This document shows positions 5,358 to 32,381 of a stretch of DNA of 32,381 nt, in pieces. The notes under the pieces were generated by a model, which saw only the letters and a list, made by a program, of their open reading frames with translations, searched no databases and was not told the origin of the DNA. A program made the position numbers and the translations under genes. The DNA is from Bacillota bacterium (lineage in GTDB: Bacteria > Bacillota > Dethiobacteria > DTU022 > UBA8154). The stretch is from NCBI GenBank assembly GCA_012520035.1, contig JAAYOY010000048.1, positions 1 to 32,381 on the forward strand, given 5' to 3'. Position 1 is the first letter of the stretch, and every line of letters begins with the position of its first letter.

Positions 5358-5399
5358 AATAAAAGAGAGGATAGATAATAAAACCGGAGAAGGTTGATT

Positions 5400-6134
5400 A
5401 TGAGTGTAACCCAATATTTAAAAGAGAAGGTCAAAAGAGGTACCGTTCATATTACGATGATTGACCCGATGAAACAATCGCCGGAGGCGGCCGCCCGACT
5501 GGCTCTTACAGCCCAGGAGGTCGGAAGCGATCTTATCTTGATCGCAGGCTTAAGCGGTCTTTCCCAAAGGAATCTCCTTGAAACTTCCCGGTCTATTAAG
5601 GAAAAAATATCCATACCTCTGGTTTATTCTCCATCAGGTGCCGAGGCACTCTGTTTTTCTTTTGATGCCCTGTTTTTTAGCAGCCTTCTTAACTCCAAAA
5701 ATCCCAATTATTTATGCGGCGGGCAGGTGCAGGCTTCGATTATTTTAAAAAGAATGGAGTTGGAGACTATACCTGTAGGGTATGTTGCTGTGGAACCCGG
5801 TATGAAAGTAGGAGATAACGCCAGTATAGAGCTTGTTTCTCGGGATAATTACTGGCTGGCAGCGAGCTATGCTGTAGCCGCTGAACTTTTCGGTATGAAG
5901 TTTATATATTTCGATTCGGGATTAAGCGCTGCCCAGCCTATTCCTGCCGGTATGATTCGCTCGATTAAGAAAGAACTTACAATTCCGCTGATTATCGGCG
6001 GGGGAATCAGGACTGCGGTAGATGCACGCCGTGTGAGGCAAGCGGGTGCTGATATGGTTGTAACGGGTACAATTATTGAGAATGCCGGTTACCGGGAAAG
6101 GTTGCGTTCCATACTGAGCGCCTTGAAAGATTAA
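5400..6134 (+). CDS. pcrB: PcrB / geranylgeranylglyceryl-phosphate synthase family protein
   Basis: TIM-barrel prenyltransferase family that joins a polyprenyl diphosphate to sn-glycerol-1-phosphate. Archaeal members start ether-lipid synthesis; Bacillus PcrB uses heptaprenyl diphosphate. The 244-residue product has the N-terminal IDPMKQSPEAA motif (21-31), a central YVAVEPGMKVG, YFDSGLSA, and the C-terminal phosphate-binding IIGGGIRTAVDARR followed by GADMVVTG. I chose the ATG at 5400, which is 6-7 nt after GGAGAAGG; the upstream in-frame TTG at 5394 is too close to that site. It has its own promoter and is not next to pcrA, which lies 18 kb away. Prenyl chain length cannot be read from the sequence. 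Confidence 0.85.
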   Translation: MSVTQYLKEKVKRGTVHITMIDPMKQSPEAAARLALTAQEVGSDLILIAGLSGLSQRNLLETSRSIKEKISIPLVYSPSGAEALCFSFDALFFSSLLNSKNPNYLCGGQVQASIILKRMELETIPVGYVAVEPGMKVGDNASIELVSRDNYWLAASYAVAAELFGMKFIYFDSGLSAAQPIPAGMIRSIKKELTIPLIIGGGIRTAVDARRVRQAGADMVVTGTIIENAGYRERLRSILSALKD

Positions 6135-12225: not shown

Positions 12226-12291
12226 GCTTTTTCCGGACCGTATTCCAAAAAGCAGGATCCTGCCAGCGCTTATTTCAGTGCAGTGCTTGTT

Positions 12292-12774
12292 TTAATGAGG
12301 AGGCCTTTTGACGTTAATCCTGAAGGTATCTTCCCTTTTTTCCTCTTTTTTGGGAAGCCTGATTTGGAGAATACCGTTTTCATAGTTGGCTTCGGCAGCT
12401 TCAGGCAGCACTTTTTTGGGCAGGGGGATGGTACTTTGAAAGCGCCCGAAACGCCTTTCTGTGAATTCGTCACCTGTGCGCTCTTCTTTATGCTGGGCTT
12501 TGATGGTAATATAGTTTTCGGCTGCGTCTATTTCCACATTCCTCGCTTCGATTTCCGGCATCTCCATAGATACGATAATGTTAGCCCCTTCTTCTTCAAC
12601 GCTGTGCCTGAAGGTAGCGAACATATTCCCATCCCTGAAAGGTGCTATAGTTTCTTCAAAAAGCCTGTTCATTTCACGGTGCATTCTTTCCAATTGGCCC
12701 CACAATCCGTAAGGAGATATCTCTCCTGCAGCCCTGCGGTTTATATTTTGGGGTAAGCGTTCATCTTCTCTCAT
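12292..12774 (-). CDS. Hsp20 / alpha-crystallin family small heat-shock protein
   Basis: An ATP-independent holdase that binds unfolding proteins in large oligomers. The 160-residue protein has a variable N-terminal region (to about 55) and an alpha-crystallin domain with IIVSMEMPEIEARNVEID and the consensus-type ending NGILQIRLPKK. The C-terminal tail holds an I-x-V motif (RINVKR) for oligomer contacts. The ATG at 12774 follows AAGGAGGC by about 6 nt. It is monocistronic. I looked for a CIRCE operator (HrcA) upstream and found none, so heat control, if any, is by another route. Confidence 0.93.
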   Translation of the reverse strand: MREDERLPQNINRRAAGEISPYGLWGQLERMHREMNRLFEETIAPFRDGNMFATFRHSVEEEGANIIVSMEMPEIEARNVEIDAAENYITIKAQHKEERTGDEFTERRFGRFQSTIPLPKKVLPEAAEANYENGILQIRLPKKEEKREDTFRINVKRPPH

Positions 12775-14337: not shown

Positions 14338-14633
14338 TAGCAAAAGGGCAATATCTTTAGATTATCATTTATAATGTAGGATTTCCTTTTTCTTTGACGA
14401 ATATATACCACAGGTATTCTATGCTGTATGGCCAGGCAGGAACATAAAAGAAAAAGAAGACTGGAATACTGAAGATAGCGGTCGGCTAATGCGCTTTTCT
14501 GAGGTGGAACGTTGAGATATTGAGTATACAGGGCTACTGCGAAAAGAAGGGTTGATTTAAGAGGCGCAGTTCCTTTTACACTTGCAGCACTTTATTTTAA
14601 TGCTTATTTATTCAGTTTTTAGGGGGGGTCTCA
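14338..14633 (+). other. Leader interval before the AmmeMemoRadiSam cassette
   Basis: About 296 bp with no gene I can support. A weak sigma-A-like promoter is possible: TTGACG (14394-14399), 17 bp, TTCTAT (14417-14422). No terminator for cwlD was found, so read-through from cwlD into the cassette is possible. The remaining sequence shows no riboswitch I recognise, although its length would allow one. Confidence 0.35.
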
Positions 14634-15470
14634 TTGAGTGTATTAATCGCAGGCATCTGTCCACACCCGCCACTGATTATCCCGGAAATCGGCGGCAGGG
14701 AAATAGACAGGGTACGCAGTACAGCGAATGCTTTAGGAAGATTAAGCAAACAGGTTGCCGCCCTTTTTCCTGAAACGGTGATCTTTATTACGCCACATGG
14801 CCCCGTTTTCAGGGATGCCCCGGCCATCCTGGCCGATGAGGAACTGCAGGGGGATTTCAGGGATTTTGGGGTTCCCGGTGTCAGCTTCAGTGTTAAAAAT
14901 GATCTCCCACTCGTCAATGCCATTGCCGAAGAGAGCCGTAAAGTAAATATATCCGTAAATCTGCTCAGAAGAAATAATAACCGGATGCGGGGGGATATTA
15001 CTACCCTGGATCACGGTATAATGGTGCCCCTTTACTACCTGGAAAAGGCGGGTTTTGCGGCCGGCTGTGTCGCCATCACCTTTGCCATGCTCCCCTTTAA
15101 TGACCTTTTTCGTTTTGGGGAGGCAGTAAAAAAGGCGGTGGAGATTTCCGGACGCAGGGTTGCAGTGATTGCCAGCGGAGATCTATCCCACCGGCTAACC
15201 AGGGATGCTCCGGCAGGTTACAACCCTCTCGGGGGGGAATATGACCGGCAAATAGTAGAGAATATAAAGAATTACAGCGTAGAGAACCTGCTGAAAATGG
15301 ATGAAAGGCTGGTTTCAGTTGCGGGGGAGTGCGGCCTGCGTTCTATTTTAATTTTGCTGGGTATTCTCTCCGGAAACAAGATTAAACCGGAGGTTTTGTC
15401 CTACGAAGGGCCGTTTGGCGTCGGTTACTTAGTGGCTCTGTTAACACCCGTAAAGGAGGGGGAAGCTTAG
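14634..15470 (+). CDS. AmmeMemoRadiSam system protein B (LigB/Memo-like)
   Basis: A 278-residue member of the class III extradiol dioxygenase/Memo superfamily, first gene of a three-gene cassette. Candidate metal or active-site residues occur in the right order: CPHPPLI (H11), TPHGPVF (H55), LDHGI (D126, H127), ASGDLSH (D183, H186) and GECG (C223). The PHPPLIIPEIG start is the form usual in Firmicutes cassettes. The TTG start at 14634 follows AGGGGGGG and fits the family N-terminus; the next gene overlaps its stop by 1 nt. The reaction is not known. Known: this family co-occurs with AMMECR1 and a radical SAM protein. Inferred: the three act together. Confidence 0.85.
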   Translation: MSVLIAGICPHPPLIIPEIGGREIDRVRSTANALGRLSKQVAALFPETVIFITPHGPVFRDAPAILADEELQGDFRDFGVPGVSFSVKNDLPLVNAIAEESRKVNISVNLLRRNNNRMRGDITTLDHGIMVPLYYLEKAGFAAGCVAITFAMLPFNDLFRFGEAVKKAVEISGRRVAVIASGDLSHRLTRDAPAGYNPLGGEYDRQIVENIKNYSVENLLKMDERLVSVAGECGLRSILILLGILSGNKIKPEVLSYEGPFGVGYLVALLTPVKEGEA

Positions 15471-15988
15471 TGCCTCAAAAAAGAAGCATTTACACGGAGA
15501 TTGCCCGGGCAGCGCTGGAGAGCCGCGTTCGGGGGGAGAAACTTCCTTCTATTCCTCCGGATCTCACCCCGGATCTTCAAAAGCCGGGGGCTGCTTTTGT
15601 ATCCATCAAGAAAAGAGGTGAGCTCAGGGGTTGTATCGGAACGATAAGCCCAACGAAGAGGACGCTGGCAGGAGAGATCGCTGCCAATGCGGTCAGCGCC
15701 GGTTTAAGAGATCCGAGATTTCCGCCTGTTTCCGAGGATGAGCTCCCGGAGCTAACCTATTCTGTAGATGTTCTCTCCGAACCCGAAAAAGTGGCGGATA
15801 TTAACGAGCTTGACCCTAAACGTTTTGGTGTAATTGTGCGCCGCGGCGGGAGAACGGGCCTGTTGTTGCCGGACCTGGAAGGGGTTTCAACTGTAGAAGA
15901 GCAATTAGCTATTGCAAGACAGAAAGCGGGTATCTTTCCAGATGAGCCGTTAGAAATTTACCGCTTTGAAGTAAAACGTTATTACTGA
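15470..15988 (+). CDS. AMMECR1 domain protein (AmmeMemoRadiSam system protein A)
   Basis: A 172-residue stand-alone AMMECR1 domain. The signature LRGCIGTISP (about 50-60) is present, with downstream LRDPRFPPV and TYSVDVLSE segments and the ending IYRFEVKRY. The domain is conserved from archaea to humans; its biochemical role remains unclear. The GTG start at 15470 shares one base with the upstream stop and follows AAAGGAGG by 10 nt, so it is coupled to the LigB/Memo-like gene. The radical SAM partner starts 10 bp after its stop. The conserved cysteine in RGCIGT is intact. Confidence 0.92.
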   Translation: MPQKRSIYTEIARAALESRVRGEKLPSIPPDLTPDLQKPGAAFVSIKKRGELRGCIGTISPTKRTLAGEIAANAVSAGLRDPRFPPVSEDELPELTYSVDVLSEPEKVADINELDPKRFGVIVRRGGRTGLLLPDLEGVSTVEEQLAIARQKAGIFPDEPLEIYRFEVKRYY

Positions 15989-15998
15989 TTGGAGGAAC

Positions 15999-17042
15999 AT
16001 GAGTACGCAGAAGGGAAGTAGTATGCAAGAAGCTCGTTTTTATAACAGAGAAAAAGATTCTTTTATTTGCAGGCTTTGCCCCCAGGAATGCAATCTGAAG
16101 GAGGAGCAGGAAGGGATCTGCGGTGTCCGCAAGGTAGCAAACGGCAAGCTGGTAACGATGAATTACGGCCTTTGCGCTGCTCTATCTTTTGATCCCGTTG
16201 AAAAAAAGCCTCTTTACCATTTCTTCCCCGGGTATGATATTTTATCCCTGGGTTCTACCGGCTGCAACCTGAACTGCTCTTTTTGCCAGAACTGGACTCT
16301 GGCCAGGGGAGGGGTGCCCGGTGCGGGGGAGAAAATATCTGCTGAGAATCTCCTCGGCATCCTCGAGGTAAGGCCGGTCAGGGAACAGCTGGGTATAGCC
16401 TATACCTATAACGAGCCGACTGTGTGGTTTGAATTTGTACGCGATACGTCAGAGTTAATTGCTGAAAAGGGCTATAAAAATGTTCTGGTTACCAACGGTT
16501 TTATTAATGAGGAGCCCTTGAAGGAGCTTTTGCCATTTATTCATGGTATGAATATCGATGTTAAGGCTTTCAAGGATAGTTTTTACCGGCGTCACTGCCG
16601 GGGAAAGGGCATTAAACAGGTCCTTAAAACTGTTGAGCAAGCCCTTTTAGAGTGTCATGTTGAGCTTACCTACCTGATAGTAACATCCCTCAACGACAGC
16701 CCGGAGGAAATAGGAAGTTTTATTGACTGGGTGGCCGGCCTTGATAAAGAGATTCCTGTACACTTTAGCCGTTATTTTCCCAGTTACCGCATGGATCTGC
16801 CTCCTACCCCCCTGGAAACCATGTATGCTGCCTGGGAGAGGGCTTACGGGAAGCTCTCCTATGTCTACCTTGGCAACGTCGGCGATGATGAACGAAGCTC
16901 CACTTATTGTCCGGATTGCGGTGAGCTGCTTATCCGCCGGAATGGTTACAGCTTGAAAAATATTGGTTTGAAAAATAAGAGTTGTAAAAAATGTGGTCAT
17001 ACTATCAGGCTTACAGGGCATATTTATGGAGAGGAGCCTTGA
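15999..17042 (+). CDS. amrS: AmmeMemoRadiSam system radical SAM enzyme
   Basis: A 347-residue radical SAM protein related to pyruvate-formate-lyase activating enzymes. The 4Fe-4S/SAM motif is CNLNCSFC (C89, C93, C96). An N-terminal cysteine cluster (C24, C27, C31, C41) and a C-terminal zinc-ribbon-like set (C304, C307, C329, C332) suggest extra metal sites. VTNGFINEEPLKELL and MNIDVKAF are typical of the family. The ATG at 15999 has GGAGG only 3 nt away; the ATG at 16023, after AAGGGA, is a real alternative and also fits the family start. Third gene of the cassette, ending near a terminator. The chemical product is unknown; a modification needing all three proteins is inferred. Confidence 0.9.
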   Translation: MSTQKGSSMQEARFYNREKDSFICRLCPQECNLKEEQEGICGVRKVANGKLVTMNYGLCAALSFDPVEKKPLYHFFPGYDILSLGSTGCNLNCSFCQNWTLARGGVPGAGEKISAENLLGILEVRPVREQLGIAYTYNEPTVWFEFVRDTSELIAEKGYKNVLVTNGFINEEPLKELLPFIHGMNIDVKAFKDSFYRRHCRGKGIKQVLKTVEQALLECHVELTYLIVTSLNDSPEEIGSFIDWVAGLDKEIPVHFSRYFPSYRMDLPPTPLETMYAAWERAYGKLSYVYLGNVGDDERSSTYCPDCGELLIRRNGYSLKNIGLKNKSCKKCGHTIRLTGHIYGEEP

Positions 17043-17360
17043 TCCGGTTAAGGAAACTTCCGTTGCAGCGAATAGCGGGAGTTCAGTAGCAAAAGAGGTA
17101 ACCGCGCGCAGGATTTTATACTTCCGCCTGCAATTTCTGCAAATCAGGCGGTTTTTCTGCATTTTGGGAATACAAATGCACTGCGCGTAATTTTTTCGCA
17201 GCGGCAGGCTGCAGAAAGCATCAAATAAGCCGGCTTACTTACAAGAGAATTATTTGCCAGTTAACAAAGCTGAAAAAAAAGCACCTCCAAAAAGGAATTA
17301 GACTGCCGGAGGCAGAATTAAAAAATAAACGGCTGGGCAGCAGGGGGTTGGAAAATATAT
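17043..17360 (+). other. Intergenic interval before cdaA
   Basis: 318 bp without a supportable gene. It holds the terminator at 17124-17156. Beyond that it has an imperfect repeat region around 17180-17215 rich in GCAG/CTGC and an A-rich stretch at 17270-17330. I found no convincing promoter for cdaA; one must lie here if the terminator works. Confidence 0.35.
17124..17156 (+). terminator. Intrinsic terminator after the AmmeMemoRadiSam cassette
   Basis: CCGCCTG (17124-17130) pairs with CAGGCGG (17145-17151), 14-nt loop, followed directly by TTTTT. It separates the cassette from cdaA-cdaR-glmM. Confidence 0.8.
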
Positions 17361-20751: not shown

Positions 20752-21213
20752 ATGGCCAATCAGTTGAGTCAGAAAGAAAAGTTGCTGTTGCAGGATCAGC
20801 TAAAACATGAGCAGGTTTGTATAGACAAATACAGATCATATGCTCAACAGGCTCAAGACCCCCAGCTAAAGCAATTGTTTAACGGCTATGCGCAGCAGGA
20901 ACAGCAGCATTACAATACGCTGGAACAAATTCTTCAAGGGCAAACTCCCTCCATGCAAGGACAACAGCAGCAACAGCAACAACAGGTGCCCGGTCAAAAT
21001 CTTCAGGGTTCCAATAATCCCAATGATGCCGGGCTTTGTAACGATATGCTGATGACGGAAAAATATGTCTCCGGAACTTACGACACGGCAATCTTTGAAT
21101 GTCAGCAAAACAGCGTTCGCCAGGCATTAAACCACATACAAAAGGAAGAACAGGAGCACGGGGAAGGGATATTTAACTATATGAAAAACAGCGGCATGTA
21201 CCAGCCGCAGTAA
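20752..21213 (+). CDS. CotF-like spore coat protein with polyglutamine linker
   Basis: A 153-residue ferritin-like helical protein of the spore coat F family. The C-terminal half, from LCNDMLMTEKYVSGTYDTAI through HIQKEEQEHGEGIFNYM, is the typical Coat F domain. The N-terminal half (EKLLLQDQLKHEQVCIDKYR, YAQQEQQHYNTL) forms another helix pair. A linker with eight consecutive glutamines (about 71-78), coded by mixed CAA/CAG codons, joins the two. The ATG at 20752 follows AGGAGGTAAGG. A strong terminator follows, so it is monocistronic. A spore-specific promoter is expected but not identified. Exact coat location is unknown. Confidence 0.85.
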   Translation: MANQLSQKEKLLLQDQLKHEQVCIDKYRSYAQQAQDPQLKQLFNGYAQQEQQHYNTLEQILQGQTPSMQGQQQQQQQQVPGQNLQGSNNPNDAGLCNDMLMTEKYVSGTYDTAIFECQQNSVRQALNHIQKEEQEHGEGIFNYMKNSGMYQPQ

Positions 21214-31494: not shown

Positions 31495-32381
31495 TTAACT
31501 CCTGTTTTTCGCCGCTTCGATCAACCCGAAGCATCCTGCCACCATCATGTTGCCGTGCGGATTGACCATGTGAAAGCCGAGTCCCTGTGCCAGAGAGCGC
31601 CTGGGGCCTGTAACTCCTACGAAGTTAAAATCGCTCTCCGGGGCATCCTGCGCGATATAGCAGCCGTGGCCTCCATCTGCAAATATTTCTTCGTGCGTAA
31701 GCTCTTTCCTGCGCAGCTTTTTGATCAGTGCGAACAGTTTTTGGGAATCCAGCAGCCGTGTATGGTGCTCGAATATACCGTAGATCCTTCGGCCTTTGAG
31801 CAGGGCAGCGAAGGTGTGCTGGTTGCCGATGTTTACCAGTACAACGCTTTCATCCAGCTTGCTCTGCACTAATTCATCTTCAAAAGAACCCAAAATTGCA
31901 GCGGAGCAAGTATCCATAACAAGAGCCTGGGGAACTGTTTTTTTAACGGCCCACATCCTTGTCAGATAATCCGGAGGGGTTAAATAGGCGAGGTTATAAA
32001 TCATTCCTCCACCCTGAATAAAACTTTTCCAGTGTTCAAAGCGAAAGTTGCGGTTGCTCATTCCGGGGGGAGCCTCGCCATGATCCTGTACGGCAATAGC
32101 CACCTCTTGCGGAAGATCGACGTGATAAAACTCCAAAACCTTTCCCAGGGTTTCTAAATCTACGTCTTTAGTATCCACAACCTCATAACCTTCCGGAGGG
32201 GAATTTTTTATCGCAATACCCAGATTTTTAACTCTTTCCAGATCGTCTTTTACCGTTTTGGCGGCCTCTTCCTCAGCGGTTACCGGAAGTCCTGCTTGTA
32301 AATGTTTTTTAATCGCTCTAACGCATCTGCCTCCGCCCATAATTGTGCCGGAAAGATGTAATCCCTTTTGAGCGGCGGTTA
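31495..32381 (-). CDS. DUF1786 family protein (actin-like ATPase fold), N-terminus beyond window
   Basis: The frame is open from the right window edge to the stop at 31495, about 294 codons. The ATG at 32340 is internal, because the 13 codons upstream (AAQKGLHLSGTI, then MGGG) read smoothly into it. The visible part has VAIAVQDHGEAPPGMSNRNFRFEHW, ALVMDTCSAAILG, VVLVNIGNQHTFAALL and a C-terminal FADGGHGCYI and MVNPHGNMMVAGCFGL. I recognise this as DUF1786, related to actin/HSP70-fold ATPases and sometimes annotated by neighbourhood as formate-lyase activation. No function is established. Same strand as the TRAP operon but 650 bp upstream and probably a separate unit. Confidence 0.75.
   Translation of the reverse strand, partial: TAAQKGLHLSGTIMGGGRCVRAIKKHLQAGLPVTAEEEAAKTVKDDLERVKNLGIAIKNSPPEGYEVVDTKDVDLETLGKVLEFYHVDLPQEVAIAVQDHGEAPPGMSNRNFRFEHWKSFIQGGGMIYNLAYLTPPDYLTRMWAVKKTVPQALVMDTCSAAILGSFEDELVQSKLDESVVLVNIGNQHTFAALLKGRRIYGIFEHHTRLLDSQKLFALIKKLRRKELTHEEIFADGGHGCYIAQDAPESDFNFVGVTGPRRSLAQGLGFHMVNPHGNMMVAGCFGLIEAAKNRS

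Follow-up and report, generated by a model that had tools for sequence, protein, structure and literature searches.

An AmmeMemoRadiSam cassette of a Dethiobacteria genome: a LigB-type metal-site protein, AMMECR1 and AmrS as parts of a candidate anaerobic radical modification system

Introduction

The AmmeMemoRadiSam cassette combines a metal-site protein (B), an AMMECR1-domain protein (A) and the radical SAM enzyme AmrS (S), which are named and curated at NCBI as TIGR04336, TIGR04335 and TIGR04337. Its gene context was reportedly analysed by Burroughs et al. in 2019, who are said to have suggested that it is linked to the modification of nucleotides or isoprenoids. In view of the curation and the published context analyses, a system that the original prediction had called under-described is better termed under-studied. 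Our literature search found no paper assigning a reaction to the cassette, as had been claimed. PMC7159879 cites the 2019 analysis for "Memo-Ammecr1 systems", and PMC7694686 also cites it.

Solved structures exist for relatives of B and of A. MEMO1 (Memo, PF01875; PDB-entries 3BCZ and 7KQ8) binds Fe(II)/Cu(I), the iron through H49, H81 and C244, and dioxygenases carry a glutamate at the position of the cysteine; with the substrates tried, MEMO1 had no dioxygenase activity (PMC11081632). AMMECR1 (PF01871) is represented by PH0010 (1VAJ), MM0484 (1ZQ7) and ST0229 (1WSC), whose entry titles assign no function. It is among the best marker proteins of anaerobes: 50.7% of anaerobic bacteria have it, against 3.4% of aerobic ones (PMC13386939). 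This is the one published clue to its distribution that our literature search turned up.

We analysed one cassette within a window of 32,381 nucleotides, contig JAAYOY010000048.1 (assembly GCA_012520035.1) of a Bacillota bacterium of the class Dethiobacteria. To the earlier work we add a proposed equivalence of LigB-type and Memo-type B proteins, an invariant cysteine, recurrent fusion and fission of B and A, and a predicted interaction of human MEMO1 with AMMECR1.

Results and discussion

Gene layout

Open reading frames and profile matches agree with the predicted trio of LigB-like, AMMECR1 and radical SAM genes. The three genes are adjacent, run in the same direction and pass all three AmmeMemoRadiSam cut-offs. 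The features are as follows.

14634..15470, + strand: B, LigB/PCAD-fold metal-site protein (AmmeMemoRadiSam protein B position), TTG start, 278 aa
14664..14666, + strand: codon of B His11, aligned with MEMO1 His49 (Fe ligand, PMC11081632); His in 98 of 99 sequences, one gap
15327..15332, + strand: B Glu232-Cys233, third metal-ligand position by alignment (Glu in dioxygenases, Cys244 in MEMO1)
15453..15472, + strand: Shine-Dalgarno sequence AAGGAGG (15453-15459) and TAGTG stop/start overlap at the B/A junction, read from the sequence
15470..15988, + strand: A, AMMECR1-domain protein, GTG start, 172 aa
15626..15643, + strand: invariant AMMECR1 motif R53-G-C-I-G-T58, conservation 0.99-1.00 over 128 sequences
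15991..15995, + strand: ribosome-binding site of S, GGAGG ahead of the ATG, read from the sequence
15999..17042, + strand: S, radical SAM enzyme AmrS (PFL-activase-like), ATG start, 347 aa
16068..16121, + strand: N-terminal Cys cluster of S, C24-x2-C27-x3-C31-x9-C41, in 129/129 sequences
16263..16286, + strand: radical SAM motif CxxxCxxC of S (C89, C93, C96), in 129/129 sequences
16908..16994, + strand: C-terminal zinc-ribbon-like cluster of S, C304/C307...C329/C332, in 115/129 sequences
17124..17156, + strand: terminator-like hairpin and T run 3' of S, from RNA folding

The coupling is as originally described: the stop codon of B and the start codon of A share 1 nt (TAGTG, 15468-15472), and 10 bp (15989-15998) separate A from S. 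The trio had also been described as bounded by a terminator. RNA folding does give a hairpin 3' of S (17124-17151, with TTTTT after it), but a consensus terminator scan did not report it and it is not conserved in a same-genus relative, so that a terminator at this position is moderately supported. A search for RNA elements gave no Rfam match, and a search of the upstream gap (14338-14633) for a conserved element found none. In the gap between S and cdaA, 58 bp of non-coding sequence (17267-17324) are 81% identical in the same-genus relative, whereas the remainder of the gap is not; this block is possibly a promoter or regulatory region of cdaA. An AAAAAGGAWTT block before cdaA was rejected as a conserved element, its frequency being near background genome-wide.

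Family assignment and conserved residues

B matches the LigB family PF02900 with 160 bits and passes TIGR04336 marginally (27.1 bits, cut-off 26, a margin of 1.1 bits). The Memo family PF01875 matched neither B nor any other protein of the source genome. The best NCBIfam match of B is HpaD_Fe, with 57.5 bits versus a cut-off of 316. A scores 161 bits against PF01871 and 143.6 bits against TIGR04335 (cut-off 99). S reaches 286.6 bits against TIGR04337 (cut-off 220) and is the one match to this model in the source genome; its nearest named relatives, both from metagenome-assembled genomes of Bacillota bacteria, are 82% (L162) and 69% (L163) identical. S stays below the cut-offs of the glycyl radical enzyme activases (PFLA 40 versus 232, YjjW 39 versus 250, NrdG2 40 versus 131 bits). 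No glycyl radical enzyme was found among the window genes scanned or in the conserved neighbour clusters.

Residue conservation was determined over 99 sequences for B, 128 for A and 129 AMMECR1-linked sequences for S. All family-invariant residues are kept in the window: in B His11, His55, Ser181, Asp183, Ser185, His186, Asp204, Cys233 and a GVGY motif; in A Leu52 to Thr58 (LRGCIGT), Asp81, Arg83, Phe84, Gln145 and Lys152; in S, besides the seven cysteines of the N-terminal cluster and the radical SAM motif, Tyr137, Glu139, Asp187, Lys189, Glu222, His255 and Asn293. Compared with the same-genus locus L062, B has a dN/dS of 0.118, A one of 0.111 and S one of 0.100, which indicates purifying selection on all three genes. 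By these sequence measures no gene looks inactive, and the copy appears to be functional, as had been predicted; it is an intact, ordinary AmmeMemoRadiSam member. Both extra Cys clusters that had been noted in S are present; only the N-terminal one, however, defines the family, since 14 of the 129 S proteins lack the C-terminal cluster, which is thus optional.

The predicted LigB/Memo-like nature of B holds for the fold and for the Memo-type residues, but B is not a Pfam Memo protein. A profile alignment with hhalign supports homology of the LigB-type B to Memo (probability 98.8%) and pairs Cys233 with the Memo cysteine. The homology is distant, with matching His/His/Asp/His/Cys positions; the Memo-type His/His/Cys set corresponds to His11, His55 and Cys233, which align and are conserved. 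Cys233 occurs in 99/99 sequences. The adjacent Glu232, which aligns with the glutamate ligand of the dioxygenases, occurs in 91/99 and is replaced by Gln in 7/99. Because the cysteine is invariant and its neighbour is not, we favour a predicted ligand set that is Memo-like rather than dioxygenase-like.

Predicted structures

For L079, in which B and A are naturally fused, AlphaFold gave a model with high confidence inside the individual domains (pLDDT 93.5); a pTM of 0.68 and a disordered linker (residues 275-284) mean that it gives no interface between the two. In a Foldseek search the B domain was nearest to TK2203 (5HEE, TMt 0.87) and to 2-aminophenol dioxygenases; MEMO1 was more distant (E = 2.8e-9, TMt about 0.51). 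The A domain was nearest to the archaeal AMMECR1 structures 1vaj, 1zq7 and 1wsc, so that A matches this family in sequence as well as in fold. In the fusion model the RGCIGT motif is predicted to lie on a β-strand (residues 330-336).

The model of S (pLDDT 94.2, pTM 0.93) has its best matches in the PFL-activating enzyme (3c8f/3cb8, TMt 0.78); NifB and HydE are also among its fold neighbours, at lower rank. S shares with the PFL-activating enzyme the fold and the arrangement of the CxxxCxxC motif and differs from it by the N-terminal Cys4 motif, the zinc-ribbon tail and its failure against the PFLA model.

Fusion and fission of B and A

The original prediction described three coupled genes. 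This is correct for the window, but most relatives have two: A lies in an open frame of fusion size in 104 of 116 phylum genomes, and such a frame contains both B and A at the loci that were read, of which 74 are fused and 29 split. Since B and A are one polypeptide in most relatives, the system is normally a pair of genes, the B-A fusion and S, and three separate genes are the rarer form. True Memo proteins are fused to AMMECR1 in Dehalococcoidia (L216, L225) and, judged by open-frame size only, in Bacteroidales, Zixibacteria and Omnitrophota. As both types of B are fused to the same AMMECR1, they share one slot beside A and S.

On the tree of S, fused and split layouts switched at least 10 times, and at least 6 of the switches are forced by well-supported branches; the split in the window is one of several recurrent fissions. 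We rejected an assembly frameshift as its cause, because the independently assembled same-genus locus L062 has the identical TAGTG junction. The split is therefore genuine, and it is old enough that both loci have it. Locus L109 differs little from the fused L110, and its split may be an assembly frameshift. Recurrent splitting with adjacency kept would fit selection for making interacting partners together and in balanced amounts.

Distribution and co-occurrence

In a survey of 149 genomes of the phylum, S and A were scored against their cut-offs; counts are given because kinship between genomes inflates any P value. S was above the cut-off in 113 genomes and A in 116, and 33 had neither. All 113 genomes with S also have A, adjacent to S in 110; the absence of co-occurrence, which had been named as evidence against the cassette, was thus not found. 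Among the three genomes with A only, G106 and G137 have an S that scores slightly under the threshold or is truncated where its contig stops, and G059 is without S. A sample of 30 genomes from other phyla, archaea included and picked for having AmrS, contained AMMECR1 in 27 and Memo above the cut-off in 24. Two loci without Memo, from a Synergistaceae member (L187) and a Dehalococcoidia member (L219), have a LigB-type B instead. Haloferax volcanii has AMMECR1, and neither TIGR04337 nor PF01875 gave a match there. The cassette is widespread, mainly in anaerobic microbes, and the claimed conservation across bacteria and archaea holds.

Two genomes depart from the common pattern. G059 (L270:1289-2704) retains LigB fused to AMMECR1, as well as a Memo encoded separately, with no AmrS match, and could reveal what the fusion does alone. 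In G171 (L271:5316-7411) the gene immediately before the B-A fusion encodes another radical SAM protein, PflA-like and shorter (245 aa), a possible replacement of AmrS. From these two cases it follows that S is not strictly required.

AmrS-like radical SAM genes were also observed without AMMECR1 or LigB, often as head-to-head pairs (L093:6125-8022, L095, L098); further loci of this kind are L002-L010, L012, L092, L094 and L096-L100. In the pairs examined, a twin-arginine, lipobox-like signal stands at the start of each protein and points to radical SAM proteins outside the cytoplasm. The first protein of the pair scores 353 bits against TIGR04337, more than the S of the cassette itself.

Proposed mechanism and alternatives

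Building on the families, invariant residues, fusion, co-occurrence and purifying selection described above, we propose, at about even odds, that the cassette is an anaerobic radical modification system in which B-A acts as a single unit served by S. S, which is PFL-activase-like, would cleave SAM and abstract a hydrogen atom from the substrate. B, with its LigB/Memo metal site, and A, with a pocket around Cys55, would form one functional unit, fused in the majority of relatives and coupled in translation in the window, that binds the substrate of S and performs a non-radical, metal- or thiol-dependent step. The Memo-like site of B (His11, His55 and the Glu232-Cys233 corner) would not serve O2-dependent ring cleavage in these anaerobes, and the system would be oxygen sensitive. 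We infer the joint action on one substrate, the order of the steps and the identity of the metal.

The cassette could alternatively be a maturase that assembles or inserts a metal cofactor, with B carrying iron, S building or modifying a ligand and A as the scaffold. The binding of Fe(II)/Cu(I) by the B-like MEMO1 (PMC11081632), the additional invariant Cys4 cluster of S and the presence of NifB and HydE among its fold neighbours agree with such a role. The likeness to NifB and HydE, however, ranks below that to the PFL-activating enzyme and is a generic radical SAM similarity. The check for a conserved target gene that had been suggested, carried out by clustering the open reading frames of 32 loci from close relatives, 60 from across the phylum and 76 from other phyla, yielded no conserved partner, be it a target peptide or a client metalloenzyme gene. 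We consider this alternative unlikely.

Still less probable is that S modifies AMMECR1: in the manner of a glycyl radical enzyme activase, it would install a radical on the invariant R-G-C-I-G segment of this protein, and radical chemistry by B-A would follow. The fold of S, the nearly one-to-one co-occurrence of A and S and an RGCIGT motif with two glycines and a cysteine that are almost invariant speak for it. Glycyl radical enzymes, however, use a C-terminal loop and not a β-strand, as predicted for this motif; none of them is among the 50 fold matches listed, and AMMECR1 occurs without AmrS in G059 and Haloferax.

We give equally little credence to B being an ordinary O2-dependent extradiol ring-cleaving dioxygenase in a cassette that degrades an aromatic compound. 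B does have the fold of the class III enzymes (LigB, 2-aminophenol 1,6-dioxygenase, HpaD), is structurally close to the 2-aminophenol and 3,4-DHPA dioxygenases, and aligns its His pair and Glu232 with their ligands; PF02900 and HpaD_Fe are its family matches. Against this, HpaD_Fe is far below its cut-off, the invariant residue is the cysteine beside a glutamate that can be Gln, B is fused or coupled to AMMECR1, a marker of anaerobes (PMC13386939), and MEMO1 was inactive as a dioxygenase on the substrates tried (PMC11081632).

Genomic surroundings

The cassette is flanked by cwlD and by a cdaA-cdaR-glmM operon, with truA-rplM-rpsI further upstream. cdaA lies within 3 kb downstream at 30 of the 32 loci from the order or class to which the window belongs and at just 7 of 60 elsewhere in the phylum, where arginine genes often take its place; cwlD lies within 3 kb upstream at 31 of these 60. 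Many relatives have a Na:alanine symporter between S and cdaA, and here the terminator-like hairpin separates the two. The clustering recovered this local synteny only (cwlD, cdaA-cdaR-glmM, arginine, ribosomal and symporter genes). A shared role of the cassette with cwlD, cdaA, cdaR and glmM in the metabolism of the cell wall or of c-di-AMP, for which this proximity speaks, is highly improbable: given the rarity of cdaA elsewhere, the intervening symporter and the arginine genes of other families, the linkage appears to reflect gene order that was inherited, not a common pathway, and inheritance suffices for a block that is the truA-rplM-rpsI-cwlD end of a ribosomal gene region.

Other genes of the window include a PcrB-family gene (polyprenylglyceryl phosphate synthase-like, 5394-6134), about 9 kb before the cassette; pcrB was rejected as an isoprenoid link, as it is near the cassette in 2 relatives only. 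An open reading frame of 157 aa (12283-12756) between beta-lactamase-fold and phosphoesterase genes had no Pfam or NCBIfam match. A spore-coat-F/ferritin-like protein (20752-21213) is weakly similar to encapsulin ferritin-like cargo. A DUF1786 protein (31495-32340, - strand, 298 bits) has no NCBIfam name and carries the Pfam label "putative pyruvate format-lyase activating enzyme".

Implications for the family

The copy in the window is an ordinary one of a conserved protein set that marks anaerobic life. Two metal-site families on one AMMECR1 domain, with one shared invariant cysteine, turn a vague "unknown function" into specific questions: does MEMO1 bind AMMECR1, is the metal bound by Cys233 (C244), and is AmrS active on a ligand bound to B-A? 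We tentatively suggest, at less than even odds, that LigB-type B and true Memo can stand in for each other as one half of an enzyme that has AMMECR1 as its other half. In humans, where the two are now separate proteins, MEMO1 would then still be in a complex with AMMECR1 and perform the B-A step, the radical SAM enzyme having been lost; the complex is predicted by a gene-fusion argument from the bacterial B-A proteins. Both human relatives of cassette members are linked to disease, cancer and developmental disease, and MEMO1 and AMMECR1 may be the separated halves of one ancestral machine.
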